This document shows positions 25,864 through 47,530 of a stretch of DNA of 64,000 nt, piece by piece (position 1 is the first letter of the stretch; every line of letters begins with the position of its first letter). The stretch spans positions 2,170,001 through 2,234,000 of the forward strand of contig CP044131.1 in the NCBI GenBank assembly GCA_008727115.1, written 5' to 3'. Origin of the DNA: Comamonas testosteroni. Lineage in GTDB: Bacteria; Pseudomonadota; Gammaproteobacteria; Burkholderiales; Burkholderiaceae_C. Position numbers and translations under genes: made by a program. The notes under the pieces were generated by a model, which saw only the letters and a list, made by a program, of their open reading frames with translations, had not been told where the DNA came from and did no database searches.

Positions 25864-25871
25864 GGCCCGCC

Positions 25872-26987: not shown

Positions 26988-27005
26988 CGGGCTTGTGTAG
27001 CGGCT

Positions 27006-27086
27006 GGACTCCACAAAGATGTTTGTGGAGTCTGATTGTATTTTTGCGCTCCGCAAACGTGTTTGTGTCGTTTGCGGACTCCACAA
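27006..27086. promoter_or_regulatory. Two hairpins and repeated 10-bp words upstream of res
   Basis: GACTCCACAAA-gatg-TTTGTGGAGTC is a perfect 11-bp stem at 27007-27032, followed by TGATTGTATTTTT. A second inverted repeat TCCGCAAAC / GTTTGCGGA spans 27050-27078. The word GGACTCCACAA occurs directly at 27006 and 27076 and inverted within the first stem. The first hairpin may terminate or attenuate transcription from fic; the repeats look like binding sites for a regulator of res. Confidence 0.55.
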
Positions 27087-27101
27087 CGACCAGGATGGCC
27101 C

Positions 27102-30172: not shown

Positions 30173-30192
30173 AAAGGAGTTTTTTATATGAG
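30173..30192 (+). other. Orphan ribosome-binding site and start codon cut by IS30
   Basis: AAAGGAG (30173-30179) with ATG eight bases later (30188) is an excellent translation start, but only one more codon remains before the IS30 end. A gene began here; most likely its remainder, perhaps the FtsK-like ATPase beyond the IS, was lost by an IS-associated deletion. Confidence 0.6.
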
Positions 30193-31314
30193 GGCGGATT
30201 CAAATGTGAAGTGCAACACCCTTGAATTCAATGGATGAGGGTGGAGTGCTGGGGAGAGTTGATCAGTAGCTCTCGATAAACCGACAGCGGTGATCGTACC
30301 CCAAGGCCCTTGCGAGGGCGGTTGTTGATTTCATCAGCAATCGCATCGAGTTGCTCTTGGCTGTAGATGCTCAGATCCATGCCTTTGGGCAGGTACTGGC
30401 GCACCAAGCCATTCATGTTCTCGTTGGAGCCACGCTGCCACGGGCTGTGTGGGTCACAGAAGTACACCGCCACGCCCGTGTTGGCGGTCAATTGCTTGTG
30501 TAGCGCCATCTCCTTGCCCTGGTCGTACGTCATGCTTTGGCGCATGGGCTGCGCAATGCCCAGCAGCTTATCTGTAAAGGCTTGCATGACATTGGCTGCA
30601 CTGGCTGGTTTGAACGCAGGCAACTTGACCAGCATGAGCAGTCGGCTGGTGCGCTCGACCAAGGTGCCTACGGCACTTGCATTGCCAGCACCCTTGATGA
30701 GGTCACCTTCCCAATGCCCTGGGAACTGCCGATCCTCAACTTCAGGCGGACGTACGTGGATGCTGAGCATGTCTGGGATCTGTCCACGACGATCCTGTCC
30801 TTTGCTACGGGGCAGCCGTTTGTTGTGAGCATGGCGCAAAGTGGCAATCAATTCCTTGCGCAACTCACCCACGGGCTGGGCATAGATGCAGTTGTAGATG
30901 GTTTCGTGCGACACGCGTAGCTCATGGCCTTTGGGGTACAGGCGTGCAAGTGTCAGCGCAATTTGCTCTGGTGACCAACGCAAACGCAAGAAATGCAATA
31001 CCAAGAACCACAAGATCCCTTGTGAATGAAGCTTGGGATCAGATCTTGTGCTGCGTCTTCTGTAAAGCCACTGCTGTTGCGCTTGCCTGCTGGCATATCC
31101 ATCGCTGGATACTGAGTTGCGAGCAATCTCACGGCTGACGGTGCTGGCACTGCGCCCTAGCAAACGCGCAATGCTGCGTACGCTATGACGCTGCAGCAGC
31201 AAACTGGCTATGGTGACTCTGTCTTCTGGTTGAAGTTGGCGATAGGACGAACGACTTGCTGACATCTGCTGACCTTAACGGTTGCAGGTGTTGCACTTCA
31301 CATTTGAATCCGCC
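30193..31314. mobile_element. IS30-family insertion sequence, about 1.12 kb
   Basis: Perfect 28-bp terminal inverted repeats start GGCGGATTCAAATGTGAAGT at both ends (30193-30220 and 31287-31314 in inverse). The enclosed transposase is intact. Flanks read ATGAG on the left and AAGTC on the right; I see no clear 2-3 bp target duplication, which fits deletion of adjacent DNA after insertion. Confidence 0.9.
30228..31265 (-). CDS. IS30 family transposase
   Basis: Full-length enzyme of 345 residues. The N-terminal HTH (Y-R-Q-L-Q-P-E-D-R-V-T-I-A and S-I-A-R-L-L-G-R-S-A-S-T-V-S-R-E) recognises the IS ends. The DDE core is seen at G-H-W-E-G-D-L-I (first Asp), T-Y-D-Q-G-K-E-M (second Asp) and N-E-N-M-N-G-L-V-R-Q-Y (Glu), the characteristic IS30 signature. 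It looks active. Confidence 0.95.
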   Translation of the reverse strand: MSASRSSYRQLQPEDRVTIASLLLQRHSVRSIARLLGRSASTVSREIARNSVSSDGYASRQAQQQWLYRRRSTRSDPKLHSQGILWFLVLHFLRLRWSPEQIALTLARLYPKGHELRVSHETIYNCIYAQPVGELRKELIATLRHAHNKRLPRSKGQDRRGQIPDMLSIHVRPPEVEDRQFPGHWEGDLIKGAGNASAVGTLVERTSRLLMLVKLPAFKPASAANVMQAFTDKLLGIAQPMRQSMTYDQGKEMALHKQLTANTGVAVYFCDPHSPWQRGSNENMNGLVRQYLPKGMDLSIYSQEQLDAIADEINNRPRKGLGVRSPLSVYRELLINSPQHSTLIH

Positions 31315-32565
31315 AAGTCAAAAAATGTCAACGATTTCAGCGAATACCGTAAATCAAGCGGGGTACGGTTGCCCCGCGTTCTGCTAGTCATAGATGAGTT
31401 CCAAATTCTGTTCTCAGAAAGTCGCCAGGTGGCAGAAGCTGCTGAGCAGCTGCTGTCGAAGCTCTTGAAACAGGGGCGCTCGTTCGGTATTCACATCCTC
31501 CTGGCTACTCAGACTTTGAAAGGCATCAACGCGCAGTCAATCGGAAGCATCATCACCCAGTTGGGATGCCGTATCGCACTGGCTTGTGGGCAGGAAGACT
31601 CCGCAATGATCCTCGGGGGCGGGAACTGGGCAGCCGCAGAGCTGCGCAGCCCACCTGAAGGCATCATCAACAATGCTAACGGTGCCAAATCCGGCAATGT
31701 GAAGTTCATGATTCCATTCGCCGGAGAAAGCGAGCATCGCCGTGATTTGTTGAAGAAGTTGATAGCGCGTACATCTCTTTCTGGGGTGGCTGAAAAAGCC
31801 AAAATCTTCAGCGGTGCATTCCTTCCGCAGATGCCGTCTCCCTTTGAATATCAGACAGCTTGTGCGCATGAAGAAGCTCTTCTTTTGGGCGAAAACCTCG
31901 CATTCGATTCAAAACCGTTGACGGTATCACTTACTCGTCGATCCGCGTTCAATGTTCTATTCAGCGGCTACAACGACCACATTCACGATGGACTCCTGTC
32001 CGCTACGCTTTTTAGTCTGACTTTCGTCGATGGCTTTGATGAAATCGTGTACTTCAACGCGCGCGGGGTCCCCCCAGGAGGAGGATTCTCAGCCGCAGCG
32101 CAGATGCTCGGTGCACGCCTCAAGATGTTCGACGATATATCCGATCTACCACTTCAAGCGATATCAGACGATATTGGGAGTCGCCGCGTAGCATTGATTA
32201 TCGATGGCCTGGATTCCGAGAAAGCACTACAGCCAGCCCCAGCGTTTAGATCGCCCAAGCCTGGCGAACCACCTACCCCGGCTGATTTGTTAAAGCGTCT
32301 CGCCGAGGACGGCCCAAGAAAGGGGACGTTTGTATTTATTTTTGTTGACCGTTGGCAGCGCTGTGCCAGTGCCAGCAAAGACCTTTTTTCCTTTTTCGAA
32401 TTGCGCGTGGCGTACTGCATGAACGAAGACGATGCTGGATCGCTTGTGAGTGGCGGTGTTGGCAAGTTCAAAGGTATTGAAAAACCGAGCCGAGCTGTAT
32501 TCGTAAACAAAATGACGAATGACATCACATGGTTCCGGCCATATGTTCAGGAAAGCACTCAATGA
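31315..32565 (+). pseudogene. FtsK/HerA-like ATPase, C-terminal part only
   Basis: The frame stays open from inside the IS to 32565, giving about 416 native residues. R-V-L-L-V-I-D-E-F-Q (31376-31405) is a Walker B box and H-I-L-L-A-T-Q-T-L (31495-31520) the sensor typical of FtsK/SpoIIIE/HerA translocases, with the linker Q-G-R-S-F-G-I between them. The Walker A region that should lie upstream is absent, removed with the 5' part by IS30. The second half (from about 31880) resembles a further, degenerate ATPase unit (V-L-F-S-G-Y-N-D-H, then V-A-L-I-I-D-G-L-D), as in multi-domain EssC-like proteins. Its stop overlaps the next start (ATGA). Probably non-functional. Confidence 0.75.
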
Positions 32566-34325
32566 AGAGGTTTCTGCTCACGTGGTATGGAATCACCGAT
32601 TTTCGCGCGTCGCTGGGGTTTGAGAATACCGACGGCCCTATTGCGAGCGCCCTTGCGGGCGCGCCCTACTCGGACATCATTATCCTGGGTTACACCCGGA
32701 TGGATAATGATGCCAGCGAATTGATTGAGGCACAGAAGACGTTCACGCTTGAATTGGCGTCAATACGAAGCATGGGGCAAGAGAAAGACTGGAAGCTTAC
32801 TAATCAGTTTGTCTCCAGGTTCGCCAATACCTCTGTCGCACATGAACATTTTGAAGCCTGGCTGAAAAAGAAAGCCGCCGCCCTGGGCTGCAACGCAAGG
32901 ATCCGTTTAAATAGCGAGAAGCTTTACCAGCTCAACGACACCGAAGGTATTTACGCTAGCGCAATACGGGCGCTGGATGGGGTTGAACAGGAGCCAGGTG
33001 AAAAGCTCGTCACGCTCTATCTCAGCCCAGGAACTCCGGTGATGGCCTTTGTCTGGGCGCTCGCGGCGCTGAGCTACCCTGAACTCAAAAAAAGACTCAT
33101 AGCATCGTCCATCATTGGCAAAGCACCTGAAGTCATAGCGTTGCCTGCCGAGTGGCTTGAGCGACACAGCTCAAAACAGGCTGCGATCCGAGGCATCTCC
33201 AACGGGTTCGATGTGACATTCCATCTTTTTGGTGAGCAACGGATGCCTGCCTTGTTGAGCATCCGGCAATTTGAGTCGGCGCATCACATTTTTGTCAACT
33301 CAAAAGACTTCCCTGCTGCATGTATGCGAACCTTTATTGGCTCTCGGGACCTGCATGAACTTACCGTTGACCCCTGGGATGATCGCGCTGTTCACGAACA
33401 AATCACCGAGCTGGCAAAGCAATTTCCAGAAAAAACACGAATTGGAATCAATTTAACTGGCGGCACAAAATTGATGTTTGCTGGCGCGCTCTCTGCTGCA
33501 CGTGAACTGGGCGCTGTTCCGTTTTATTTTGACAGCAAGAATCGTCGCGTCACATTCATTGACAGTGTTCGACGCGAAAAAATCAGGCGGATTGATTCAA
33601 TCGAGACATTTTTGCACCTGAATAGCGATGGTTTGCAGATTGCAGGCAGTTCCTTCATGAAGGATATATCGCCAAGTCGCCAACTTCTGACCGAGACCCT
33701 TTGGCTGCATCGTGACAAGGTGCGTAGATTTTATAGAGAACTGACCGACTATAACAATGCACTCAGGCCATTCGAGATTTGTCGTGACGGCTTCAATTTC
33801 AAGCTGGATGACATGGAGGCAGTATCCGTCCAGGGCTATGGATTAGATCTGAGATTTGAGAAATGGCCTGATTTCGCCAAATACCTATCTGGCGGCTGGT
33901 TCGAGGAGTTTGTTTATTTGCAGTGCAAACCCTACGAGGATGCTGGAGTCATTCAAGACTTGCGCATCAATGTCAAGCTGAACTTGAATTTAGAAGAGTC
34001 AAAAGGCTATTCGAGCTTCGGTGTTGAATACAACGAGCTGGACATCACATTCACCGACGGTTATTCGCTTTATATCGTGGAATGCAAGGCGGGCAATGTA
34101 ACGCAAGAGCAGATTATGAAGCTGCAGAACCTTGTGCGCTTCTACGGAGGAATTGAAGGTCGCGGTATCGTTGCCTGCTGTGTTCTCCCAAATACTGAGT
34201 CGGTCAAGAAAAAAATAAAAGATGCCAGGCTGATGCTTTGGAGTGGTGCATCACTTTCTGAGCAGATAACGGCAATGATGAACAGCATCACTGAGCGGGC
34301 TGAAGCGAGTGAGGCAACGCCATGA
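32562..34325 (+). CDS. CARF-type sensor with PD-(D/E)XK nuclease (Can2/Card1-like), no CRISPR nearby
   Basis: Protein of 587 residues. An N-terminal Rossmann-like domain (1-180) has L-G-Y-T-R near residue 45 and Y-L-S-P-G-T-P-V-M-A at 153-162, a pattern reminiscent of RtcR-type CARF domains. A second one carries I-N-L-T-G-G-T-K-L-M at 296-305, the signature ligand loop of CARF (DUF1887) proteins. The C-terminal nuclease has G-G-W-F-E-E-F-V-Y (444-452), N-E-L-D-I (491-495) and I-V-E-C-K-A-G (505-511), the E/D..ExK active site seen in Can2/Card1 cOA-activated nucleases. Known relatives are switched on by cyclic oligoadenylate; no cyclase is recognisable here. It is ATGA-coupled on both sides, so it belongs to this operon. 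Confidence 0.78.
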   Translation: MKRFLLTWYGITDFRASLGFENTDGPIASALAGAPYSDIIILGYTRMDNDASELIEAQKTFTLELASIRSMGQEKDWKLTNQFVSRFANTSVAHEHFEAWLKKKAAALGCNARIRLNSEKLYQLNDTEGIYASAIRALDGVEQEPGEKLVTLYLSPGTPVMAFVWALAALSYPELKKRLIASSIIGKAPEVIALPAEWLERHSSKQAAIRGISNGFDVTFHLFGEQRMPALLSIRQFESAHHIFVNSKDFPAACMRTFIGSRDLHELTVDPWDDRAVHEQITELAKQFPEKTRIGINLTGGTKLMFAGALSAARELGAVPFYFDSKNRRVTFIDSVRREKIRRIDSIETFLHLNSDGLQIAGSSFMKDISPSRQLLTETLWLHRDKVRRFYRELTDYNNALRPFEICRDGFNFKLDDMEAVSVQGYGLDLRFEKWPDFAKYLSGGWFEEFVYLQCKPYEDAGVIQDLRINVKLNLNLEESKGYSSFGVEYNELDITFTDGYSLYIVECKAGNVTQEQIMKLQNLVRFYGGIEGRGIVACCVLPNTESVKKKIKDARLMLWSGASLSEQITAMMNSITERAEASEATP

Positions 34326-34810
34326 TGCTCCATTTGGTTTGCGACATCTCCGGCAGCATGAGTGAAGGAGGCAAGCCCTTCATCCTGCGAACCTTGGCCA
34401 CGACCGTGGCGCAATGGGTGCGGCATGGGTATGGACAGGCGGAAATCCGCCTTTGTGCTTGGAGCAGCGAGGCACGCAGCATCCCGAACTGGAGCGTCAC
34501 GGACGATCTCCCGGTGGAAATGCTGGTTTGCCATGGAAGCACCAATGGCGAGGCGCTGGTTCAACTGTTGGGTAGCGAGCCGGATGGAAAGGTTCTGATT
34601 CTCACGGATGGATTCTGGACAAGAGACGACGTGAAGACTCTGAGCCGCTGGCAGGAAGGCCTACCGCCGGATACGCTGCGCGTCATCCAAATCGGCGCGG
34701 ATGCCAACCCGCATCTTTCCAAGGGGCTCAAAGGCGCAAAGGTGTTTGCCGCAGAAGAAGTGCTCGCCGTACTCGATAACTGGCTGCAGGCGGATGAGGA
34801 ATGGGCATGA
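34322..34810 (+). CDS. vWA domain protein (TerY-like)
   Basis: Stand-alone von Willebrand A domain of 162 residues. The MIDAS metal site is complete: Asp8-I-Ser10-G-Ser12 (C-D-I-S-G-S-M), Thr74 (H-G-S-T-N-G) and Asp96 (I-L-T-D-G-F). TerY-type vWA proteins pair with a PP2C phosphatase and a Ser/Thr kinase, and those two genes follow directly. The start overlaps the preceding stop as ATGA, and the end overlaps the phosphatase gene by 10 bases. It probably scaffolds or responds to phosphorylation in the complex. Confidence 0.86.
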   Translation: MMLHLVCDISGSMSEGGKPFILRTLATTVAQWVRHGYGQAEIRLCAWSSEARSIPNWSVTDDLPVEMLVCHGSTNGEALVQLLGSEPDGKVLILTDGFWTRDDVKTLSRWQEGLPPDTLRVIQIGADANPHLSKGLKGAKVFAAEEVLAVLDNWLQADEEWA

Positions 34811-35523
34811 CGCTTTGGAAAAGTTTTGGGGCAAGCGTTCGCGGCCCGAGCCATATCGCCGAAGGTTTGCCAAATCAGGATGCATGGGCGAAGTTTCACC
34901 ATGTTTGGGGTGATGGCATCGTCGTGTCCGACGGGGTTGGCTCCAAGCCCTTCTCCAGCTTCGGCAGCCATGCTGCCTGTCTCGCCGTCGAGTTCGCAGC
35001 CCGGGCTTGTTGCACCAGTGGTGAAATCGAACACAACGCGCTGTTTAGCAACATCCAAGCTAACTGGCTGAGGCTTGTTGCTCCGCTGGAACCTCGCGAT
35101 TGCGCGGCCACCTGTCTTTTCGCACTACGCCTGGATGGCGTAATCCACCTAGGGATGCTTGGCGACGGACTTGCCGCTATTGCCAAGTCCGATGGATCAG
35201 TCGTTTCGCTGTCGGAAAACAAGACACAAGGCTTCTCCAATATCACCATTGCGCTGTCCTCCAAGGTCTCCGCCAAAGACTGGCAGTATTTGTCGCTGCC
35301 GGGGGAGCAGTGCATCGCAGTATTGCTCTGCACTGATGGGGTGGCTGACGATTTGGATAACGCTGACGGGTTTGTGAGCAGTTTCGCCGAAACGCATCGA
35401 ACCCTCGCGCCGGTAAGTGCCAACCGGCGCATCCACGAGATGCTCGAAAACTGGCCCACGCCCAAGCACAGCGACGATAAAACCCTCGCCTGCCTGTGCA
35501 GTGAGGAGGTTGCAGATGAGTAA
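34801..35523 (+). CDS. PP2C-family protein phosphatase
   Basis: Metal-dependent Ser/Thr phosphatase of 240 residues (238 if ATG at 34807 is used). PP2C motifs are clear: L-P-N-Q-D-A-W, V-V-S-D-G-V-G-S (metal Asp), L-G-M-L-G-D-G (metal Asp), L-C-T-D-G-V-A-D-D, and S-D-D-K-T near the C-terminus. It lies between the vWA and kinase genes and overlaps both, so it most likely removes phosphates put on by that kinase. Confidence 0.88.
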   Translation: MGMTLWKSFGASVRGPSHIAEGLPNQDAWAKFHHVWGDGIVVSDGVGSKPFSSFGSHAACLAVEFAARACCTSGEIEHNALFSNIQANWLRLVAPLEPRDCAATCLFALRLDGVIHLGMLGDGLAAIAKSDGSVVSLSENKTQGFSNITIALSSKVSAKDWQYLSLPGEQCIAVLLCTDGVADDLDNADGFVSSFAETHRTLAPVSANRRIHEMLENWPTPKHSDDKTLACLCSEEVADE

Positions 35524-36859
35524 CGCCGAACACCAGGCTCTGAAGCCACTTGTGGATGAATACGACAATGTTCATCAGATGGCCGATGAGCTTGCGCGCG
35601 GTGGACAAGGCGTGGTCTATCGCACCAAGGATGCGGATTTGGCCGTCAAGCAGCCGCTGGACGCAGCCGGCCAGCCGGACAAAAACGCCAATCTGCGCGA
35701 GCGCTTCCAGCACGTCCGCCTGTTGCCCATACCACGGCGCATCCCCGTTTCCCTGCCACTCGCCATCCTGCGCGACGAGCCGGGCTATGTGATGCGTCTG
35801 TTGAGCGGCATGAAGCCCTTCGCCAGTTTCGATTTGGACGGCAGAAGCAAAAAGAAGCTGGAAGATCAAAGCCAAGCCTTGCCCCAATGGCTGACGAAGA
35901 TTCCTGACAAGGACCTGGCGCTGCGACTGCTGCATTACGCACAAACTGGCTCCACCCGCCGCCGTTCGCTCGCGCTTGCCAAGTGCGCTGCCATCCTCGC
36001 CCGCCTGCACAGCGCGGGACTGGTCTATGGCGACATTTCCACCAACAACGCTTTCATTGGCGAAGAAGACACCACCGATGTCTGGCTCATAGATGCCGAC
36101 AATATGCGCCTGGAGTTACCCAGCGGCGGCGTGTCCGTCTATACGCCGGGCTACGGTGCACCGGAGGTAGTGCAGGGCCGCGACCAATCCCGCCCGCGAA
36201 CCGACTGCTGGGCTTTCGCTGTGATGACATTCAAGCTACTGGCGCTTTGCCACCCTTTCATTGGCAAGAAAGTACTGGAGCCCGAAGATGAAGAAGACGG
36301 CTGGGATGCCGACCCTGCGCCCAATGGCACTGCCACCGATCTGAACGAACAGGCATTCGCTGGTTTCTTGCCTTTCGTGGATGACGAAAATGACGATTCC
36401 AACGAAGGAGTTGGAGGCCTGCCCCGTGTATTAGTCGCAACAGAAGGATTACGCCGCCTGTTTCAGGAAACTTTCGGTGCAGGACGTGAACTGCCGCACC
36501 GCCGCCCGACAATGGCGTTCTGGATATTGGAGCTTGCGAGGGCGGCGGATCAGTCGCTGGATTGCCTCGAATGTGGCATGAGCCATTTCGCCGATGAATA
36601 CGCGCAATGCCCGTATTGTGGCGCGGCGCGCCCGGCTTTCATTCGCGTCAAAACGCCACGTTGGGAAATCCTGATTCCTGGTGGTGCCACGGAGTTCAGA
36701 TTGCCGCAGCGGCTTTTTCACCCGTTTTCATTCGAGTATTTCGATAACACAGCATACGAAGCCATGCTGAACTTCGCGGCCAAAACCGCAGTCCCCGTGC
36801 GGGGCACGCTGCCTTTCCCGGACAACCTCACCTTTGAGTTCGTAGAGGCCTGCAAATGA
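35516..36859 (+). CDS. Ser/Thr protein kinase with C-terminal zinc ribbon (TerY-P type)
   Basis: Kinase of 447 residues. Gly-loop G-G-Q-G-V-V-Y (29-35), ATP lysine Lys45 (A-V-K), catalytic loop Y-G-D-I-S-T-N-N (Asp173), metal motif I-D-A-D-N (Asp195 replaces DFG), and G-A-P-E (214-217). The zinc ribbon is Cys350-x2-Cys353...Cys365-x2-Cys368. This kinase + zinc ribbon with vWA and PP2C partners is the TerY-P triad of comparative genomics. The start is preceded by GAGGAGGT and overlaps the phosphatase by 8 bases; the stop overlaps the helicase start (ATGA). Targets may be the neighbouring helicase or ATPases. Confidence 0.87.
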   Translation: MSNAEHQALKPLVDEYDNVHQMADELARGGQGVVYRTKDADLAVKQPLDAAGQPDKNANLRERFQHVRLLPIPRRIPVSLPLAILRDEPGYVMRLLSGMKPFASFDLDGRSKKKLEDQSQALPQWLTKIPDKDLALRLLHYAQTGSTRRRSLALAKCAAILARLHSAGLVYGDISTNNAFIGEEDTTDVWLIDADNMRLELPSGGVSVYTPGYGAPEVVQGRDQSRPRTDCWAFAVMTFKLLALCHPFIGKKVLEPEDEEDGWDADPAPNGTATDLNEQAFAGFLPFVDDENDDSNEGVGGLPRVLVATEGLRRLFQETFGAGRELPHRRPTMAFWILELARAADQSLDCLECGMSHFADEYAQCPYCGAARPAFIRVKTPRWEILIPGGATEFRLPQRLFHPFSFEYFDNTAYEAMLNFAAKTAVPVRGTLPFPDNLTFEFVEACK

Positions 36860-39800
36860 AGTTTCAGGACATTCCTGTCAACATCATAACTGTCCGCATC
36901 AAGCGGTCTGACAATGTCGAAGCCCTGCAAGAGCAGCCAGTATTCTCGGTAGAGGCCAGCCTATCCCGCGCAGATGAATTTGAAATCCGCCTGAGAGACG
37001 CGGTTGTTTTCGTTCGCCCCGTCGCGGCTGTTGACATCCGCCGCCTCAACGCTGAACTTGCCAGTGGGCGTTCCCTGCTTGCACAACTTGAAAACCCTGC
37101 CGCCGATGGCAGCATCGAGTTGAAGATCGGTTTTTTCACCGGCGTCTGCATGGAAATGGGCGATGTTGAAATCGGTGTGGATGAGTATGTGCAAGAAAAG
37201 ATGCGGACGAAGGGCGAGGCACTTTACAAGAGGCTGGGCGAACTTTGCTGCTTCCAACAGGGAAACGACGCATTTTTCTTCCTGACTGCTGGCCCGGCGA
37301 TTGATGAAGAACTGAAACCTGTCGGCGAGGACACGCCACGCGATGCAGCTGCGGAGCCGACCCGAATAAACGCTTTCTGTGTTACTGGCGAAGGTATCCG
37401 CTTCATTGCCACCGAAAAAGCAATGCCAGGCGGCCAAACCATCTACATCGCCACACGCATAACCAGGACCAAAAAAGAACCCGACCGCGCCCTGCGCCTC
37501 GCCAAAGGCCGGCTGCGTTTTGCCGATTGGACACAAGCAGGGCAAGTGCAAACTCTTGCCAAAGCGCAAATGCGCGCTCTTACCCAAGACGACAACAGCT
37601 ACCTGAAAAAGTGGGATGAATTTGGTGACATGGAGGGCGAATTGCTGCTCAAGCAAGCGCGCGAAGTGGGGGCTTTACAATTCACAGAGATGGCTCAGGA
37701 GCGGGATGGAACCGTCACGGTTCGCATTTCACAGGCACTTGACTCTGCATTGAAAGCGCTGAGGAACGGTGCCGTACCTGAAGTCGAGTTGGTGGATGAA
37801 CTGCCGGACTATTTGAAAGATGAACGCTTGAGCTTCAAGGATTTTGCAAGTGGAATTGAGCAAGCGGAGAAGATCAAGCAGGGCGACGGAAATCGCGAGC
37901 AACGTGAAGGAAAGACCTACCTTGATGTCGTCGGGTTTGACCAGGAAACCCGTGTGCTTACGCTCAAAATCGAGGCTCTGCCCAAGGAATCCGGCACGCT
38001 CATCCTGTCGCTGGCCGGTGAAACCACCCAGATCAAACGGCGTATGGCGGCCCGTCAAGCCATTCTGGAAGGCCGTTCCGCCAATCCACAGCTTGGGCTA
38101 TTGATTGAGGAACAGGGGCAAATCACACAAGTCCGCCCGCCGCAAAAAGTCCAGTCACTCACCGCATTCGTTCGCAACAAGGTCTTTCGCAATCCGCCAA
38201 CCGTCATGCAGGAAAGGGCTATTGAGGTTGCGCTGAATACGCCAGATCTCGCGCTTATTCAGGGGCCGCCGGGAACGGGAAAAACCACCGTCATCGCCGC
38301 CATTCTGGAGCGGCTGAACGAGATGGCCGACAAGCGCGGCGCGAACATCAAAGGCCAAGTGCTGCTGACCGGCTTTCAGCACGATGCGGTGGAAAACATG
38401 ATCGAGCGGCTCTCGCTCAACAGCCTGCCCGTGCCGAAATTCGGCAAACGGTCTGGCGCGACGGAAGACGATCTCAGCACCTTCGAGCGCAGTCTTGAAG
38501 CCTGGTGCAGCTCGCTTGCCACCGAACTGCGCGAGCGCAATCCCCAGATTGCGGAAGCCGAGCAGGAGCGGGAAATAAAAAACCTGTGCCTGCAATATGT
38601 CCAAGCCCCGTCACGCGCGCTCGCCGCCAACCTTGCTGGGAAAATCACAGCGCTCGGCAGTGTAATTCTTGGCGAAGACGGCGCTCGGCGGTCGGCGAAT
38701 TTGGCGAAAAAGCTCGCGCACGAGGAAAACCTCAACGATGGCTCCACCCAATGGCTTGATGCAGCGCGCCGTCTGCGTGTTCGCCATGAAAGCTTTTCTG
38801 ACGACGGGCCAGAAAGGGCGATGGACGCACTGGATGACCTGCGTGATGTGCTTGAAGAAGACGAACGCAAACTGCTGGACAAAGCCAGTCTGTGGCGCAA
38901 TGAAGATGGCCCAGCGCCATTTTTGGACAACCTGGTCGCGTTGAAAAAGAGGCTCTTCGCCCGGTTCACCGCTCCACCGATTTTTCGCGTGGAAAAGCAG
39001 AACGACGCAGTGCTTGCATTGGCAGAATTCGCCATACAACGCATCAAAAACGCCGAGTATTCGGCTAAGGATAAAAAATCTGCTGCGCTGGCCGAGTTTC
39101 TGGCCGAACTGGAAGGCAACCCCTATGGCATGGTAGATGCCCTGTCCGAATACAGTTTTGCCTTTGCCGCCACCAGCCAACAGAGCGTCAATCGTGATAT
39201 GCAAAAGCGCAAAGGGCTTGTCGGGCGCGACGTCAATGAAAACCAGAAAGGCATGGAATACGGATATGTCATCGTGGATGAAGCCGCTCGCGTTTCACCC
39301 CGCGACCTGATGGTTCCGATGGCGCAAGGCAAGCGCATCATTCTGGTGGGCGACCATCGGCAGTTGCCGCATATCATTGATGAGGAGGTAGCACGCCAAA
39401 TGGAGGCTGGCGAGGCAGCATCGGCCGACGATCCGGCACAGAATGAAACTGACTGGCTCAAGAAATCCATGTTCCAGTATCTGTTCGCCACCCGCTTGAA
39501 AACGCTGGAAGACGGCGACGGTATCTCCCGCCGTGTCACGCTCGACAAGCAGTATCGGATGCACCCACTGCTCGGCAGCTTTATCAGCCGCAATTTTTAT
39601 GAACGCTTCGATCCGACGGAACAATTCGGCTCTGGACGGCCTGAAAGCGATTTCGCCCACAACCTGCCCGGCATAAACGGTAAACCTGCTGTGTGGCTGG
39701 ACGTGCCAGCGGCGAAAGGCAGACACCAGCGCAGCGGAACCAGTTGGACGCGCCCGGCAGAGGCCACCGTTATTGCCCGCCAATTGCAGGCGTGGATGAG

Positions 39801-40212
39801 TTCAGATGCAGGCAAAGACCTCTCGTTCGGCGTGATTTCGTTCTACAAGGCGCAGGCCGAACTCATCAAGAGACAACTCGGCAGCATCGCGGACGACGAG
39901 AGAAAACTCCGCGTCGGCACGGTGGACTCATTCCAGGGCATGGAGTTCGATGTCGTCTTCCTTTCAATGGTGCGAACCTTGCCGCATAACTGGAAATCCA
40001 AGAGCGATGACCGTGAAAAGCAGGCCACAGGGTTGTTCGGACACCTTTGCCTTTACAACCGCCTGAATGTCTCGATGAGTCGTCAGAAGAAGCTACTGGT
40101 GGTCGTTGGCGATACGGGTTTGCTGCAAAGTGAACTCGCGGCGGACTTTGTGCCGGGACTGGTGGATTTCCTTCGACTATGCCGCGAGCAAGGAGTGGTG
40201 CTGCCATGCTGA
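36856..40212 (+). CDS. UPF1/DNA2-like superfamily 1 helicase
   Basis: Protein of 1118 residues. The first 460 have no motif I can name (an accessory region). The helicase core has the Q-type P-T-V-M-Q-E-R-A-I, Walker A G-P-P-G-T-G-K-T (about 472-479), Walker B I-V-D-E-A-A-R (about 805-811), G-D-H-R-Q-L-P-H (motif III), K-Q-Y-R-M-H-P (IV), V-G-T-V-D-S-F-Q-G-M-E (V) and N-R-L-N-V-S-M-S-R (VI), which is the UPF1/DNA2/SMUBP2 pattern. A long insert with helical character lies between Walker A and B (about 540-790). Coupled by ATGA to the kinase gene. Confidence 0.9.
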   Translation: MKFQDIPVNIITVRIKRSDNVEALQEQPVFSVEASLSRADEFEIRLRDAVVFVRPVAAVDIRRLNAELASGRSLLAQLENPAADGSIELKIGFFTGVCMEMGDVEIGVDEYVQEKMRTKGEALYKRLGELCCFQQGNDAFFFLTAGPAIDEELKPVGEDTPRDAAAEPTRINAFCVTGEGIRFIATEKAMPGGQTIYIATRITRTKKEPDRALRLAKGRLRFADWTQAGQVQTLAKAQMRALTQDDNSYLKKWDEFGDMEGELLLKQAREVGALQFTEMAQERDGTVTVRISQALDSALKALRNGAVPEVELVDELPDYLKDERLSFKDFASGIEQAEKIKQGDGNREQREGKTYLDVVGFDQETRVLTLKIEALPKESGTLILSLAGETTQIKRRMAARQAILEGRSANPQLGLLIEEQGQITQVRPPQKVQSLTAFVRNKVFRNPPTVMQERAIEVALNTPDLALIQGPPGTGKTTVIAAILERLNEMADKRGANIKGQVLLTGFQHDAVENMIERLSLNSLPVPKFGKRSGATEDDLSTFERSLEAWCSSLATELRERNPQIAEAEQEREIKNLCLQYVQAPSRALAANLAGKITALGSVILGEDGARRSANLAKKLAHEENLNDGSTQWLDAARRLRVRHESFSDDGPERAMDALDDLRDVLEEDERKLLDKASLWRNEDGPAPFLDNLVALKKRLFARFTAPPIFRVEKQNDAVLALAEFAIQRIKNAEYSAKDKKSAALAEFLAELEGNPYGMVDALSEYSFAFAATSQQSVNRDMQKRKGLVGRDVNENQKGMEYGYVIVDEAARVSPRDLMVPMAQGKRIILVGDHRQLPHIIDEEVARQMEAGEAASADDPAQNETDWLKKSMFQYLFATRLKTLEDGDGISRRVTLDKQYRMHPLLGSFISRNFYERFDPTEQFGSGRPESDFAHNLPGINGKPAVWLDVPAAKGRHQRSGTSWTRPAEATVIARQLQAWMSSDAGKDLSFGVISFYKAQAELIKRQLGSIADDERKLRVGTVDSFQGMEFDVVFLSMVRTLPHNWKSKSDDREKQATGLFGHLCLYNRLNVSMSRQKKLLVVVGDTGLLQSELAADFVPGLVDFLRLCREQGVVLPC

Positions 40213-42146
40213 AGCTCCTTGATTACGGTAAACCTGCCCCCTTCGGAGGGATCATCGGCAGGCCTCGCCACCTCGCGTGGCCGGTGAACGTATACCGCGT
40301 GACCTTGCCCAGAGTTCTTGACGATGGCGATGGCTTGAACGCATTTGAACGCGTCATCCTGAAACTGCTTGAAACTGTCGGCTTGATGAACGCCGATGCG
40401 CTGGCGGATGAAACCCGCATTCCAGTCGATTTGGTCAAGAGCGTTCTGCTCCGTTTGCAAGACAAGGACTTGATTGACGACCACCATGCCATCATTGAGC
40501 GGGAGCGCGAAGAAGAATGTGCCCCGGCATTCGTTACCGCGCTTTTGTTCCGCGAACTCGCCACTGGAAAAATTCTGCCCTTCCTGCATTGGCTGGACGA
40601 CACAAACCCCATGCGGAAAAAGGAAAACGAGGACAAAGACTTCCGGATAATCCGCTGGGATGGTGTCCAAAGAAAAGCGATACCCGCGCCGCGTGATGTA
40701 ATCAGAACTTTGCGCGCAATGAAAAAGCGCTCGTCTGCGTTCGGCAAGGACACCAAGATGCCCGTAGTCCAGCAGATCACGATAGTCGCCGAGCCCGACC
40801 TGCTTCACCTTGACTGCCCTATCGCCATCCAGAAAAGCGATGGCGAATTCCGCATCGCCGACCCATTCGGCAACGGTTTTTCCTTGATTCTCGAAAAATC
40901 GTTCGAACAGTTGCTTGAGCAGGAGGAAAGCCTGACCACGTGGCTGCATGGTTGGAAGCAGTCATTGAGCACTCCTCGTCCAGAAAAGCAGGATGCCACG
41001 GTCAAAGAGCCGTTCGACAACGACGCCAACTGGCAAAGTTACCCGAAGCTCGTCGCTAATTTGCGCCCCTTGCGGAATAGCCCGTTCCGCTCCATCGCCC
41101 AAATCCATGCCGCCATCGAATGGGCACTGTTTTATGCCAGTTGCCGCCGGCCGGTTGATTCCGTCATTAAAAGGCTGAAATTCACTGCGCAAGACCAGCA
41201 CGCCGCCCTGCTTGAGCAGGCCGCGAAAACCGTCGGTCTTGAGCCGCCGCCGAACGGCTTCAGACCGATTCGGGAAGGTAAGCTGCGGGAATTTGAGGAC
41301 GGTGGTGCGTTCCAAGAGACGGTTCTCGCGATCGCTCTGCTTCAAGCGCAAGACGATGCGTTGCATCCCTTGCGCCGTGTTGTGGTCGCGTATTCAGACC
41401 TCATTAACCGCCTTCTTGCCATCAACGCCAAACGTAACGAGAAGGGCCACGGCAAGGGTGGCGCGGACGCCCCGCAGCAGGCACTAACTGACGATTCGTT
41501 CATGCGCGAAGTCGTTCATGCGCTTGTGCCAGACATCATGTTTACCGACACGCCTCCTACCGCGCCAAACAAGGACGAGCAGGGTGATGCACTGCTGGAT
41601 GCCCGTACCAGCATTCAAGAGGAGTTCGGCCACCGGCTGTTCAACCGCCTGGGCGCAAACCTGCAAGACCGGCTGGTTCACGCGGAGCGTTTTTTCCAGT
41701 CGTGTCATGACGGGGATGACTCTTTGGCCTATGTTCGCGATCTTTATGCCGCAATCCAGTCATCATTTGCGAGAGCTTTGGCAGGCAGGCTGCCGCCTGA
41801 TACCTGTGAAGGGCAGATCAAAGACATGGCTGAAAGTAAAGCTGCTGAGGCTGGTTTCTGCGAGGGCTTACCTGAGAGCCTGCGCACCGTCAAAACGTCG
41901 GCTGTGCGTCAGACACTGCAAGGCGGCAGCCAAACACTCGGAGCTTGCGTTCTTGCATGGTTGCTGGTGAGCGATGCTGATGAACTTGCCGCAATTCATG
42001 ACACGCAGCCGTCCTTGATCGGCGATATGGCAAACCTTATCGCTCGGCGTGGGCATGGCAACGAGCCGCTGCCATTGCCCAAAGAGAACATCGCACAGCT
42101 TCGCAAAGCTGCTTTCACAACTATCAGAACACTTATGGAATCTTGA
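40206..42146 (+). CDS. Unrecognised protein with N-terminal winged helix
   Basis: Protein of 646 residues that I cannot place in a known family. Residues about 40-95 look like a winged helix (A-F-E-R-V-I-L-K-L-L-E-T-V then L-V-K-S-V-L-L-R-L-Q-D-K-D-L-I). The rest is mostly helical and soluble, without Walker, nuclease or membrane motifs. The gene overlaps the helicase by 7 bases and is followed by the AAA+ gene after 2 bases, so it is an integral operon member, perhaps a DNA-recognition or adaptor subunit. Confidence 0.72.
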   Translation: MLKLLDYGKPAPFGGIIGRPRHLAWPVNVYRVTLPRVLDDGDGLNAFERVILKLLETVGLMNADALADETRIPVDLVKSVLLRLQDKDLIDDHHAIIEREREEECAPAFVTALLFRELATGKILPFLHWLDDTNPMRKKENEDKDFRIIRWDGVQRKAIPAPRDVIRTLRAMKKRSSAFGKDTKMPVVQQITIVAEPDLLHLDCPIAIQKSDGEFRIADPFGNGFSLILEKSFEQLLEQEESLTTWLHGWKQSLSTPRPEKQDATVKEPFDNDANWQSYPKLVANLRPLRNSPFRSIAQIHAAIEWALFYASCRRPVDSVIKRLKFTAQDQHAALLEQAAKTVGLEPPPNGFRPIREGKLREFEDGGAFQETVLAIALLQAQDDALHPLRRVVVAYSDLINRLLAINAKRNEKGHGKGGADAPQQALTDDSFMREVVHALVPDIMFTDTPPTAPNKDEQGDALLDARTSIQEEFGHRLFNRLGANLQDRLVHAERFFQSCHDGDDSLAYVRDLYAAIQSSFARALAGRLPPDTCEGQIKDMAESKAAEAGFCEGLPESLRTVKTSAVRQTLQGGSQTLGACVLAWLLVSDADELAAIHDTQPSLIGDMANLIARRGHGNEPLPLPKENIAQLRKAAFTTIRTLMES

Positions 42147-42148
42147 AA

Positions 42149-43759
42149 ATGAACAGCCCCGTCCAACCCGACACCGAAGCCCAGCGGCTTGCCGATTTGA
42201 ACGCGCGTGAGAGCTGGATAAACACCAAGGAAAGCGAAATCGCCAGCCGTGAAACCGCCGTGGCTACACGTGAAAGGGATGCGACTGCAGAGCGTCAAGT
42301 CATCGAGCAAGACAAGGCCAAGCTGGCGCAGCGCGAGCAGGCCGTCACGCAGGCTGAGCAAAAGTGTGATGCAGGTTTTGCCGATGAACGAGCCGCGCTG
42401 AATGATGAGCTGCGTGAAAAGCGCGCCCAGGGCGAAAGAGCAATTGCCGAGATGCGAGAGAAAAACCTTTCAGCGTTGGAGGTTGAAATTTCCGAGCTGA
42501 AAGCAAAGCGACTGGGTGCGGTTGCCCATGCCGAAAACGCCGAACGGGAGCGCATTCGGACAGAAATCGCCCAAGAGCGCGATGCATGGACAAAACAACA
42601 GGGTGACGCTCGAAAGCAGTTGAATGCAGAGCGCACGGAATTTGAGAAACAAAAAGGCGCACTCTCCGCCTTGCAAAGCGAAGTCGAAGGAAGACAGGCA
42701 GAGCTTGAGACTTCAGAGCGGACACTCGAACGCAAAGAACAACGGCTGGAACAGCAGAACCAGAGGCGCAGCGAGCAACTGGACGATGAGGTTGAGAGGC
42801 GTGTTGAGGATCGCCGAAAATCGCTAGAGGCTGCTCTGCAATCTGCCAAAGAGGAAAACATTCGACTGCGCGAGGCGTTTAAAAATCAAGACGAACTTCT
42901 CGGCGCGTTCGAACAGTTAAAGTTGCAACTTGGTGGCAAAGACCCTGCTGAAATTCTGCGTGCGCTGAACAGCCAGGCCGACGAACTCAAACGCCTACGA
43001 GAGGAGCTTGCTACCCGACCTACTGAGGAAATGCGCGAGCGGTATCAAGCCCTTGAATCAGAAGCCAAAAATCAGAAAACACGGGCAGACCAGTTAGAAC
43101 GGCAACTTTCCACCAATGAGGCTGCGGTCGCTGAAATTGGCGAGCTGCGCCGTCAAGGCTCGGAGCTCAACGCCGAAAACAAATCTCTGGCGCAAAGGGC
43201 ATCCATCTTCGAGGGAGCAGCCAACGAAGCGCAAGCCGAACTCAAGCGTTTGCGTGCAGCTTATGAGCGCCCTGCTGAAGTTACCGCTCGCTACAAAGAA
43301 ATTGAGATGCCGCACATCAGTGTGGATAAGGTCAAGCAGCCGGTGCAGCACGAGATCGATGAGCTAACTTGGCTCACTGGGATTGGTAATGCTTGCGATA
43401 CATACGGACTACATTTCAATCCACGTATTTTGAAAGCTTTTCATACAGCTCTCAAAACAGCGGAATGGTCGCCGCTCACTGTCCTGGCAGGGGTTTCCGG
43501 AACCGGAAAATCCGAACTGCCGCGCCTCTACTCGCACTTTGGCGGAATTTATTTCGAGCCGCTGTCTGTCCAGCCTAATTGGGATTCGCAGGAATCCATG
43601 CTGGGCTTTTTCAATTCCATAGACAATAAATTCGATGCACAGCCGGTGCTGCGTTTTCTCGCGCAAAGTCAGATATCAGGCCGCGAACAATATGAACAGC
43701 GCATTAGACGTTGGCAGAGTATGTCGCCAGATCAGCAAATAGCACTTGACCCTGAGAAG
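42149..43759 (+). pseudogene. Coiled-coil McrB-like AAA+ protein, 3' end removed by IS5
   Basis: The remaining 537 residues comprise a very long Glu/Lys/Arg-rich coiled coil (about 10-390) and the beginning of an AAA+ domain: V-L-A-G-V-S-G-T-G-K-S-E (Walker A about 448-456), then L-S-V-Q-P-N-W-D-S-Q-E-S-M-L-G-F-F-N, the W-D..LGF strand characteristic of McrB GTPases. Walker B, sensors and C-terminus are cut off at 43760, where the IS begins. The ATG at 42149 follows GGAA; a TTG at 42143 is also in frame. McrB proteins work with McrC-type partners, and a DUF2357 gene lies beyond the IS. Confidence 0.8.
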
Positions 43760-44792
43760 GGCTTTGTTGCATAAATCGGCCATAGGCCAAGGCATCCCCA
43801 ATCCCAAATAGATTTACGCAGCAGCGACTGTCTGGGGCGTGCCCAGAGCGGTAAATTGATTGAGGATTGAAGCTCGGATGTGCAGCTCGGTCACCTGGCG
43901 CTCAAACGTCCTGGCCATGACCTTCTCGCCGAGTCGCTTGAAGCAATTCATCTTGGTCTCCACCAGTGACCTTCGGTGGTAGCCGCTCCAGCGTTTCCAG
44001 ATAGCCCGCCCCAACTGCCTACACGCCTTGACCGCTTCATTGCGGTGAGCAAATGCCAGCCCTTTGCGCAGCTTCGCTCCTTTGCGCGGCGGGATGATTG
44101 GAATGGCTCCCCGCAGGTAGCACGCCTTATGTACATCCTGCGTGTCGTACGCCCCATCACCGGTAAAGCTAGCTATCTCTTCATTGCTTGGAATTTGACC
44201 TAGCAGGTCTGCTGCCATGGGCGAGTCGCCCACTTCATTGGTTGTTACTGCGATGGCCCGAATCTGCAGTGTCTGGGCATCAATACCCAGATGCACCTTG
44301 CGCCACTGGCGGCGGCTCTCGGCACCGTGCTTTTTGGTTTTCCACTCACCTTCGCCCAAGAACTTGATGCCCGTGGAGTCGGCCAGCATGTGCAAGCCTT
44401 TGTCACTTGCACGGTAGCGCACCTGCACATCCAAGCTCTTTTGCCTGCGACACACCGTGCTGTAGTCGGGCACTGGCCAATGCAGGCCTGCCATACCCAA
44501 TAGCGACTCAACCAGGCCCAGTGTCTGGCGCAAGGGCTGGCCAAACAAGCACTTGATGGTCAGGCAAAACTGGATGGCCGCATCTGAGAACTTCTGGCAA
44601 CGACCACGCTTGCCCGTGGGCCGAGCTAGCCACTGCATATCCCTATCGAGCCAAATGGTCAGCTCACCTCGCGCCTTCAACGCTGCGTTGTAAGCCTTCC
44701 AGTTCGTTGTGCGGTACTTAACCCGACCCCAGCTCGTCTCTCTCATCTCCCGAGCCTACCTCAGCTGCGACCGGCATTTGTGCAACAACGCC
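43760..44792. mobile_element. IS5-family insertion sequence, copy 1 (1033 bp)
   Basis: Ends GGCTTTGTTGCATAAAT and, inverted, GGCGTTGTTGCACAAAT, imperfect terminal repeats of about 17 bp. The transposase runs on the minus strand. By eye this copy is the exact reverse complement of 45746-46778. Flanking bases (CTGAGAA / GATCCAC) show no target duplication. Confidence 0.9.
43814..44746 (-). CDS. IS5 family transposase, copy 1
   Basis: Intact DDE transposase of 310 residues: L-A-D-S-T-G-I-K (first Asp), F-T-G-D-G-A-Y-D (second Asp) and the R-R-S-L-V-E-T-K-M-N-C-F (Glu) box of IS5-group enzymes. Identical in protein sequence to copy 2 at 45792. Confidence 0.95.
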   Translation of the reverse strand: MRETSWGRVKYRTTNWKAYNAALKARGELTIWLDRDMQWLARPTGKRGRCQKFSDAAIQFCLTIKCLFGQPLRQTLGLVESLLGMAGLHWPVPDYSTVCRRQKSLDVQVRYRASDKGLHMLADSTGIKFLGEGEWKTKKHGAESRRQWRKVHLGIDAQTLQIRAIAVTTNEVGDSPMAADLLGQIPSNEEIASFTGDGAYDTQDVHKACYLRGAIPIIPPRKGAKLRKGLAFAHRNEAVKACRQLGRAIWKRWSGYHRRSLVETKMNCFKRLGEKVMARTFERQVTELHIRASILNQFTALGTPQTVAAA

Positions 44793-44974
44793 GATCCACG
44801 GCCAGTCGAGACTCGGACAATGCTGAATTGCCACACTCCCTTTTTATGAAAGATGAACCAGATTCAGACAAGCGTCATAAAATGTGGAACTTAAAGACAC
44901 CAGAGCAACGAGATGAGCTGCGCGTGAAACTTGAAGAAAATGCCAGAGCAGGAAGGATTCACGCCAAGCAATGA
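44793..44974 (+). pseudogene. Orphan 3' fragment, possibly the tail of the McrB-like gene
   Basis: A frame open from the IS edge encodes about 60 residues ending W-N-L-K-T-P-E-Q-R-D-E-L-R and A-R-A-G-R-I-H-A-K-Q. Its stop overlaps the next start (ATGA at 44971), like the other operon joints, so it was the end of the gene directly before DUF2357, most simply the McrB-like gene whose start ends at 43759. An alternative is a small stand-alone gene of 42 residues starting at ATG 44846; no good ribosome-binding site precedes it. Confidence 0.5.
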
Positions 44975-45745
44975 GTATTACTCTGGAAAAAATCTATACC
45001 GACTTCCGTGCCAAAGAAAAACTTGCCAAAAAACTGCTTGAGCAAATGAATTGGTTTGGTTCAATCACGGATTTCGATCCTAAGACCGGCGCGGCTCTGC
45101 CGAAATCCTTGTCAGGGTTCCTCGCCAAAGTCGCACAGCCAGAAGCGAGTGAGATAACCCGTGACCGCCTTTGGCGCATAACGGAACACTGCCGCGCTTC
45201 TGTCGAGCGATTATTTCATTCTCTCAACGAAAGTCCTCGCCGCGAACACGCTCTACTGCCTGTTCATGCTGTGCGTGAACTGGATGCCAACAGTTTTATT
45301 AAGCTGAGTAATCGTCCGGGTCGTACCATTCGGGAAAAACTGGCAGGTAACCCCTACATACAGGCTGTGCGTCGTTTTCAATCCGTCGACCTGCCGGAAA
45401 ATCGCTTGCTGAAAGCCTTTGCCATTCGCCTTGCGGAAATGCTTGATTTACGCGGTGATTGTCTCGGTCAAGAGGATGAGCTTCTATCAAAAATCTACTT
45501 ATGGTTGCGTTCTGATGAGGCGCAAGCCATCGGCAATTGGGAAAATCTGCCACCTAACAACACGCTACTAGCACACCGAGATTACCGTCACGTGTGGGAT
45601 GCATGGCGCTGGCTGCAAACCCTCGATGAGGACATCACCAGCGACCTTTCTCAACTGGATGTCCGCGAGAAAACCATGCGCCTTTGGCAGCAATGCGCGC
45701 AAATGTGGCTTGATGGAAAGCATCTTTTTGCTGAGATACCGTTAC
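44971..45745 (+). pseudogene. DUF2357 / McrC-like protein, 3' end removed by IS5
   Basis: About 258 native residues remain. The sequence R-E-L-D-A-N-S-F-I-K-L-S, then R-P-G-R-T-I-R-E-K-L, and the stretch S-V-D-L-P-E-N-R-L-L-K-A-F match DUF2357 proteins, which act beside McrB-like ATPases and usually carry a C-terminal PD-(D/E)XK nuclease. The nuclease part would lie after residue 260 and is lost at the IS boundary. The frame runs 11 codons into the IS before a stop. It is translationally coupled to the preceding fragment. Confidence 0.72.
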
Positions 45746-46778
45746 GGCGTTGTTGCACAAATGCCGGTCGCAGCTGAGGTAGGCTCGGGAGATGAGAGAG
45801 ACGAGCTGGGGTCGGGTTAAGTACCGCACAACGAACTGGAAGGCTTACAACGCAGCGTTGAAGGCGCGAGGTGAGCTGACCATTTGGCTCGATAGGGATA
45901 TGCAGTGGCTAGCTCGGCCCACGGGCAAGCGTGGTCGTTGCCAGAAGTTCTCAGATGCGGCCATCCAGTTTTGCCTGACCATCAAGTGCTTGTTTGGCCA
46001 GCCCTTGCGCCAGACACTGGGCCTGGTTGAGTCGCTATTGGGTATGGCAGGCCTGCATTGGCCAGTGCCCGACTACAGCACGGTGTGTCGCAGGCAAAAG
46101 AGCTTGGATGTGCAGGTGCGCTACCGTGCAAGTGACAAAGGCTTGCACATGCTGGCCGACTCCACGGGCATCAAGTTCTTGGGCGAAGGTGAGTGGAAAA
46201 CCAAAAAGCACGGTGCCGAGAGCCGCCGCCAGTGGCGCAAGGTGCATCTGGGTATTGATGCCCAGACACTGCAGATTCGGGCCATCGCAGTAACAACCAA
46301 TGAAGTGGGCGACTCGCCCATGGCAGCAGACCTGCTAGGTCAAATTCCAAGCAATGAAGAGATAGCTAGCTTTACCGGTGATGGGGCGTACGACACGCAG
46401 GATGTACATAAGGCGTGCTACCTGCGGGGAGCCATTCCAATCATCCCGCCGCGCAAAGGAGCGAAGCTGCGCAAAGGGCTGGCATTTGCTCACCGCAATG
46501 AAGCGGTCAAGGCGTGTAGGCAGTTGGGGCGGGCTATCTGGAAACGCTGGAGCGGCTACCACCGAAGGTCACTGGTGGAGACCAAGATGAATTGCTTCAA
46601 GCGACTCGGCGAGAAGGTCATGGCCAGGACGTTTGAGCGCCAGGTGACCGAGCTGCACATCCGAGCTTCAATCCTCAATCAATTTACCGCTCTGGGCACG
46701 CCCCAGACAGTCGCTGCTGCGTAAATCTATTTGGGATTGGGGATGCCTTGGCCTATGGCCGATTTATGCAACAAAGCC
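45746..46778. mobile_element. IS5-family insertion sequence, copy 2 (1033 bp)
   Basis: Same element as 43760-44792 in inverted orientation, with the transposase on the plus strand. The 953 bases between the copies hold the two truncated gene pieces. Flanks GTTAC and TTGGT show no duplication; the left flank is in the DUF2357 gene and the right flank in an integrase gene of opposite direction, so DNA has been lost here. Confidence 0.9.
45792..46724 (+). CDS. IS5 family transposase, copy 2
   Basis: 310 residues, identical to copy 1, with the same complete DDE triad. Both copies look functional; the HTH-like N-terminus (F-S-D-A-A-I-Q-F-C-L-T-I-K) is intact. Confidence 0.95.
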   Translation: MRETSWGRVKYRTTNWKAYNAALKARGELTIWLDRDMQWLARPTGKRGRCQKFSDAAIQFCLTIKCLFGQPLRQTLGLVESLLGMAGLHWPVPDYSTVCRRQKSLDVQVRYRASDKGLHMLADSTGIKFLGEGEWKTKKHGAESRRQWRKVHLGIDAQTLQIRAIAVTTNEVGDSPMAADLLGQIPSNEEIASFTGDGAYDTQDVHKACYLRGAIPIIPPRKGAKLRKGLAFAHRNEAVKACRQLGRAIWKRWSGYHRRSLVETKMNCFKRLGEKVMARTFERQVTELHIRASILNQFTALGTPQTVAAA

Positions 46779-47456: not shown

Positions 47457-47530
47457 TGGAGCGGGTGATGGGAATCGAACCCACGTTATTTGCTTGGGAA
47501 GCAAGAGTCCTACCATTGAACGACGCCCGC
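47457..47530 (-). tRNA. tRNA-Gly (CCC), probable island attachment site
   Basis: Reverse complement: acceptor GCGGGCG ... CACCCGC with T discriminator and CCA; anticodon loop TTCCCAA (anticodon CCC); T-loop TTCGATT. Its 3' end faces the truncated integrase, so this tRNA was probably the attB site of the island. I could not find a second copy of its 3' end at the left island edge. Confidence 0.94.

Follow-up and report, generated by a model that had tools for sequence, protein, structure and literature searches.

The coiled-coil nuclease tandems (CoCoNuTs) are defined by McrB-like GTPases that have an NxD motif and that are fused to coiled-coils (Bell et al. 2024, PMC11090510). Their Type III-A members, as laid out in the portions of that paper used here, combine CnuH, CnuE (which has two HEPN domains, with the motifs RxxxxH and RxH), CnuB, and a nuclease-free CnuC, very often together with a TerY-P triad. 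In an extended form, two vWA genes stand around an EssC-like ATPase and WXG100 proteins, and a 2xCARF-D-ExK protein is added. The published order begins with vWA, the EssC-like ATPase with its WXG100 proteins, the 2xCARF-D-ExK nuclease, and a short vWA; it continues with PP2C, a kinase-zinc ribbon protein, CnuH, CnuE (a winged helix-turn-helix (HTH) with two HEPN ribonuclease (RNase) domains), CnuB, and CnuC. Compared here with these systems is a gene cluster at positions 31315 to 45745 of a 64,000-nucleotide stretch of the Comamonas testosteroni genome (assembly GCA_008727115.1, contig CP044131.1, positions 2,170,001 to 2,234,000), called the window in what follows.

The cluster is very probably a copy, acquired horizontally and broken not long ago, of a Type III-A CoCoNuT that had the EssC/WXG100 extension at its 5' end. 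Its surviving genes match the published order one by one: EssC, 2xCARF-D-ExK, vWA, PP2C, kinase-zinc ribbon, CnuH, CnuE, CnuB, and the DUF2357 gene. It differs in that its EssC gene, cnuB, and cnuC are broken, and in that the 5' vWA and WXG100 genes are lost. The order of the genes and the three junctions with insertion sequences are directly observed, as are most of the diagnostic domains and motifs; so are almost identical Pseudomonas copies that are unbroken at these junctions. The domain calls come from Pfam, NCBIfam, and PADLOC scans of the open reading frames (ORFs) of the window. The features are as follows.

30188..30192, plus strand: ATGAG, the start codon and two further bases of a lost first vWA gene, from comparison of the flanks with Pseudomonas paracarnis (G300)
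30193..31314, minus strand: IS30-family insertion sequence, with transposase at 30228-31265 and perfect terminal repeats of 28 nt (NF033563, E value 5e-95)
31315..32565, plus strand: 3' fragment of an EssC/FtsK-like ATPase gene, equivalent to residues 513-927 of 927 in the Caballeronia homologue (70% identical)
32562..34325, plus strand: 2xCARF-D-ExK nuclease, 587 amino acids, related to Card1/Can2, ORF intact
34322..34810, plus strand: internal short vWA protein (TerY-like), 162 amino acids, DxSGS motif, ORF intact
34801..35523, plus strand: PP2C-type phosphatase, ORF intact (Pfam, 2e-54)
35516..36859, plus strand: Ser/Thr kinase, zinc-ribbon-like at its C-terminus, ORF intact (Pkinase, 2.4e-9)
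36856..40212, plus strand: CnuH, a UPF1-like SF1 helicase, ORF intact
40206..42146, plus strand: CnuE, with a winged HTH (about residues 37-105) and two HEPN motifs, ORF intact
42149..43759, plus strand: 5' part of cnuB, a McrB-like GTPase with a long coiled-coil-like region, codons 1-537 of 880
43760..44792, minus strand: IS5-family (ISAav2-like) element, copy 1, replacing about 843 bp of cnuB
44793..44974, plus strand: orphan 3' tail of cnuB, about 61 codons
44971..45745, plus strand: 5' part of cnuC (DUF2357), 258 of 1111 codons
45746..46778, plus strand: IS5-family element, copy 2, inverted with respect to copy 1 and 100% matched to it, truncating cnuC

An initial annotation of this DNA had read the region as nine consecutive genes in one operon, matching no named system. 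Much of that annotation holds. The coordinates, the plus strand, and the junctions are right, with frames and overlaps as given there from 31315 to 43774 (ATGA overlaps at 32562, 34322, and 36856; 10 bases shared at 34801, 8 at 35516, and 7 at 40206; a gap of 2 bases before 42149). The calls of FtsK/EssC ATPase, CARF nuclease, PP2C, kinase, SF1 helicase, and DUF2357 are borne out, as is the general picture of a defense-type operon, next to a type III restriction gene, in which CARF and TerY-P are joined with a helicase and McrBC-like parts. At 44971 there is an ATGA as well, but the partner of the DUF2357 gene in that overlap is the orphan 3' tail of the McrB-like gene and not the 541-amino acid ORF. 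The gene noted for its winged HTH does encode one; overlooked were its two HEPN RNase motifs, and the gene is CnuE. What does not survive is the single operon of nine genes: the first gene is truncated on its 5' side at the IS30 element, and the McrB-like and DUF2357 genes are cut by IS5 elements.

Overlaps typical of operons and an uncommon combination of domains could, of course, mark a new and unnamed nine-gene defense system. This is scarcely credible, and was rejected, because the same set in the same order already has a name, Type III-A CoCoNuT with an EssC extension, in the published description (PMC11090510). A prior description as one named system was the second of the outcomes that the initial annotation itself gave as refuting its reading. 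A cluster holding TerY-P, WxG, FtsK, helicase, McrB-like, and DUF2357 genes has also been described in Helicobacter pylori, where it is likewise disrupted by deletion (PMC4978471); it differs in belonging to another host phylum, and the word CARF is absent from that paper's text, which cites an earlier TerY-P study. The gene combination is real but already described and named; it is not new. The window copy, moreover, is not intact. A literature query for CARF with TerY and PP2C returned no paper, and no experimental report on Type III-A CoCoNuTs was found in literature searches. Natural material for testing the extended Type III-A CoCoNuT is at hand in the near-identical Pseudomonas copies and in a complete operon on a Caballeronia plasmid.

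These relatives carry much of the argument. Two Pseudomonas genomes hold copies that are 95-100% identical per protein and that are whole where the window copy is broken. The window DNA is 98.8% identical to that of P. paracarnis (G300) over 31314-43760 and 99.8% over 44793-45745. When the CARF protein was used to query 72,556 plasmid records, it was matched in 16, of which 15 also have CnuE; the sixteenth shows a partial CARF match. Here, plasmid pSBC2-5 of Caballeronia sp. SBC2 has the set complete and all in one direction: vWA, WXG100, coiled-coil nuclease, two small genes, EssC, CARF, and vWA in the 5' part, then PP2C, kinase, CnuH, CnuE, CnuB (893 amino acids), and a DUF2357 gene (1104 amino acids). 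Phage records searched for CnuE gave no match.

Beyond plasmids, 36 loci of the CARF family were taken from genome contigs, and each was queried with the window, Caballeronia, and Phytobacter proteins. Since the loci were picked through their CARF gene, the counts describe companions of the CARF family, not the frequency of CARF among CoCoNuTs. The co-occurrence check suggested with the initial annotation comes out clearly: the homologous genes stand together elsewhere, with at least one further gene of the set in 36/36 loci and the best matches all on the CARF strand. A core Cnu gene is present in 33 of them, and in the other three (L020, L029, L049) the contig ends before one could appear. 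EssC, CARF, vWA, PP2C, kinase, CnuH, CnuE, and CnuB lie in this order on one strand in 20 of the 36. The order recurs in other genera and phyla, so that the gene combination is more than chance. Among 300 genomes of the same order, the CARF query matched ten, namely the genome itself and nine others; these nine matches are weak and partial, which indicates that close relatives are rare in the order as sampled.

Comparison with the Pseudomonas copies shows that three insertion sequences, one IS30 and two IS5, damaged the window copy. Some 4.3 kb of the 5' extension has given way to the IS30 element, whose flanks map about 4.3 kb apart in P. paracarnis. Between the equivalents of 30192 and 31315, P. 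paracarnis has the first vWA gene, a WXG100 gene, the coiled-coil nuclease gene, two small genes, and the first half of EssC. The gene set of the extension (two vWA, EssC, WXG100, coiled-coil nuclease, 2xCARF-D-ExK) is present in the intact relatives L012 and L014; in L014, where the match to the first vWA begins at L014:4438, WXG100 is matched at 3e-8 and VWA at 2e-15. Of this set, the window keeps just the 3' half of EssC, the CARF gene, and the second vWA. Its EssC fragment retains a Walker B-like LLVIDEF, but the half with the P-loop is lost; in Caballeronia the P-loop lies at residue 432, inside that half, and the window fragment starts from the equivalent of residue 513. The NCBIfam matches of the fragment (EccCa, 1.2e-11; EssCb, 6e-9) are both far under their curated cut-offs, as expected of a fragment.

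At the other end, cnuB keeps its P-loop and is without Walker B and NxD; the region of Caballeronia CnuB equivalent to the lost 843 bp or so carries both. The composition of CnuB and a weak match to SMC (4e-4) are consistent with a coiled-coil. A repeat search found the two IS5 copies as a 1034-nt inverted pair, corresponding to a 1033-bp IS5-family element (NF033579) that is annotated as ISAav2 in a Comamonas plasmid; the insertion sequences suggest a comamonad host. In the whole genome, window copies included, there are 24 or more near-identical full-length copies of this element and 22 or more full-length copies of the IS30 element; these are lower bounds, 40 of 54 candidates having been scored for IS5 and 40 of 67 for IS30.

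Simple insertion with target duplication was rejected, as there is no 9-bp repeat at either IS5 copy in the window. Elsewhere in the genome (G000:C1:2923610-2925773), an IS30 copy is interrupted by an IS5 copy, and the two IS30 pieces overlap by 10 bp, which is a target duplication of the kind absent from the window copies. The contrast implies that deletion accompanied or followed insertion. Relocation of the missing parts by recombination between insertion sequences was rejected as well, because searches of the 4.14-Mb genome did not find the lost DNA and protein at another place. There was no match to the 4310 bp that are lost (34/34 candidates scored) or to the coiled-coil nuclease protein (27/27 scored), although an empty result of this kind shows little unless a positive control accompanies it. 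The cnuB/cnuC DNA gave the window pieces alone (38/38 scored, with a query that stops at the end of L118, a few hundred bases before the end of cnuC). A search with the cnuB protein added a single weak match (33% identity, E value 6e-7, G000:C1:2269034-2269288), taken for another P-loop protein.

The window copy is thus a CoCoNuT remnant and not a working member, because cnuB no longer encodes a complete GTPase core. With CnuB lacking its Walker B/NxD core, CnuC mostly gone, and the P-loop half of EssC gone, it is inferred that the system of this strain cannot work as a CoCoNuT. Six genes, those for CARF, vWA, PP2C, kinase, CnuH, and CnuE, are nevertheless full length against the intact relatives. 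One might suppose that these form a reduced but working module, in which the CARF nuclease, the TerY-P triad, and the CnuH-CnuE pair act without CnuB and CnuC; the six full-length frames speak for this, as does the survival of upstream sequence that includes the start region of the first vWA gene. Such a module is unlikely, however. The same six genes differ from those of P. paracarnis by 0.1-4.5% in DNA, too little time for decay to become visible; upstream of them stands an IS30 element whose transposase is antisense; and CnuB accompanies CnuE in all 30 loci that show CnuE. The six frames presumably remain open because the damage is recent.

For the intact system, the mechanism considered here follows the published prediction, as given in the portions of PMC11090510 used. 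A GTPase ring of CnuB, with CnuC, would recognize an infection-linked RNA or ribosomal state, and the CnuH helicase would hand the substrate to CnuE, the two-HEPN RNase, which would cut RNA. The vWA-phosphatase-kinase triad would serve as an on/off switch. The 2xCARF-D-ExK nuclease would be a second effector, triggered by a cyclic nucleotide and shutting the cell down, while the EssC/WXG100 module would have a motor or export job of unspecified kind. RNA targeting by HEPN domains with a staged shutdown fits better than cutting of DNA in the manner of McrBC, because the recognizable nucleases are the HEPN protein and the CARF nuclease.

A McrB-like P-loop, a DUF2357 protein, and an adjoining type III restriction gene speak for a canonical McrBC-type system that cuts modified DNA, with accessory signaling genes. 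This is very unlikely, and was rejected, since the relatives have NxD instead of the NxxD of McrB. The NxD form, GTMNQD, occurs in 23 of 31 CnuB frames, including those of the near-identical L014, L015, and L017, and seven of the eight frames without it are cut by the end of the locus; the canonical NxxD pattern is found in 0/31. Nor is DNA cutting by the McrBC-like pair, as initially annotated, to be expected, since the one complete CnuC relative scanned, that of L046, has no recognized nuclease domain. It shows DUF2357 (1.8e-4; 7.8e-5 for the window fragment) and a cold-shock domain (6.7e-4), all under the Pfam cut-offs, and the cold-shock matches in the PDB have E values of at least 0.012. 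A family search with it matched no nuclease family, although a diverged nuclease could escape such a search. A defense role for the wider CoCoNuT group is supported by Druantia, a known anti-phage system whose Types I and II have been re-labelled Type IV CoCoNuT in the portions of PMC12458937 used here. Type IV shares a CoCoNuT-type CnuB homologue in a defense operon; it differs in its YprA helicase and inactivated CnuB, and is without the helicase/RNase set of the window.

The HEPN motifs of the window CnuE are RNEKGH at residues 410-415 (RxxxxH) and RGH at 615-617 (RxH), and both are conserved. The assignment of CnuE as a predicted HEPN RNase was further checked by a model and by a match to RnlA; a sequence profile run against the PDB matched an HTH regulator alone. 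CnuH is 66% identical over its full length to the Caballeronia homologue and matches the IGHMBP2-family helicases (E value 1.6e-38, under the curated cut-off). Its best PADLOC match is MkoA of the Mokosh system (E value 2e-95), and a kinase lies in the same locus. In Mokosh Type I, MkoA is a kinase-helicase fusion. Here, kinase (35516-36859) and helicase (36856-40212) are separate frames and the remaining locus differs, and Mokosh was rejected.

The CARF nuclease is matched by PADLOC CARF_PDDEXK over almost its full length (970 bits) and by the Card1-like family of Pfam (1.3e-8). It resembles Card1/Can2 of type III CRISPR systems in joining CARF to PD-(D/E)xK (about residues 222-563 aligned; Can2, E value 8e-14), but has some 200 extra residues at the N-terminus and lies among CoCoNuT genes; of the Pfam matches to the scanned window ORFs, none is named as a Cas protein. 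In the published account, the extra N-terminal part of 2xCARF-D-ExK proteins is a second CARF (PMC11090510, in the portions used here), and the same region of the window protein has a weak RtcR-type CARF match. The TerY-P triad (vWA, PP2C, and kinase with zinc ribbon) is complete in the window, the kinase having two CxxC pairs, read from the sequence, after its kinase domain. The internal vWA protein has no Pfam match, and its Caballeronia relative is annotated as vWA. One feature counts against the assignment to Type III-A: this vWA retains a threonine near the metal ion-dependent adhesion site (MIDAS) position, which PMC11090510 describes as missing.

The CARF gene can stand before the second vWA gene. 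In eight of the 36 loci (L038, L039, L043, L044, L045, L046, L047, L048), it lies downstream of cnuC; these are from Actinobacteria, bacteria of the Planctomycetes-Verrucomicrobia-Lentisphaerae, and a spirochaete. Upstream DNA was examined for seven of them (L047 left out). In 7/7, the kinase adjoins CnuH and both vWA types match (one cut by the end of the stretch, one weak). An EssC/WXG100 module lies between the vWA types in three (L135, L136, L140), and four have no ATPase module between them. In the main text of PMC11090510, so far as used here, migration to the 3' end is described solely for the third ATPase type. It is doubtful, if conceivable, that the 2xCARF-D-ExK nuclease is a dedicated and movable effector of Type III-A CoCoNuTs, with a relay from RNase to CARF in one operon. 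The loci with CARF downstream of cnuC offer a comparative handle for asking if the CARF nuclease acts as an independent effector.

As to how the cluster arrived, its identity to the Pseudomonas copies is mosaic. The CARF gene is 99.0% identical to that of P. paracarnis and 90.7% to that of P. putida; for cnuE, the values are 95.5% and 99.7%. Among the three Pseudomonas genomes compared (G300, G301, G303), the 5' half of 31315-45745 is closest to P. paracarnis and P. pseudonitroreducens, and cnuE to P. putida. The mosaic points to recombination between co-circulating copies, and recent transfer of the cluster between Pseudomonas and the window's lineage, with recombination, is probable. In P. 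paracarnis (L117-L119), genes for an SNF2 helicase, GmrSD, and type III mod/res come before the near-identical copy, and TraI- and TraG-type conjugation genes come after it; from these flanking conjugation and mod/res genes, the copy probably travels on an integrative conjugative element. Six loci (L031, L034, L035, L036, L040, L041) have EssC modules 45-50% identical to that of Caballeronia, while in their core genes they are most similar to the Phytobacter type, where a CDC48-like ATPase stands in place of EssC. This suggests that extension modules have been exchanged between core lineages.

Around the cluster, a complete type III restriction (res) gene lies within 25132-30107, and no methylase domain was recognized in the ORFs scanned beside it. 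Similarity to the Pseudomonas mod gene is confined to its 3' end, over about 335 bp (25531-25865) that are in frame with a PAS domain. No 14-nt repeat of the tRNA-Gly gene (47457-47530) was found in the window, and an attachment repeat there was rejected. Adjoining this tRNA gene is a minus-strand ORF with a DUF6538 domain (46764-47369) that runs into IS5 copy 2. DUF6538 is often N-terminal in tyrosine recombinases, and the ORF is probably a broken integrase of the island. Between the mod remnant and res stands a Fic-family gene (25860-26987), which is absent from that place in the four relatives compared.

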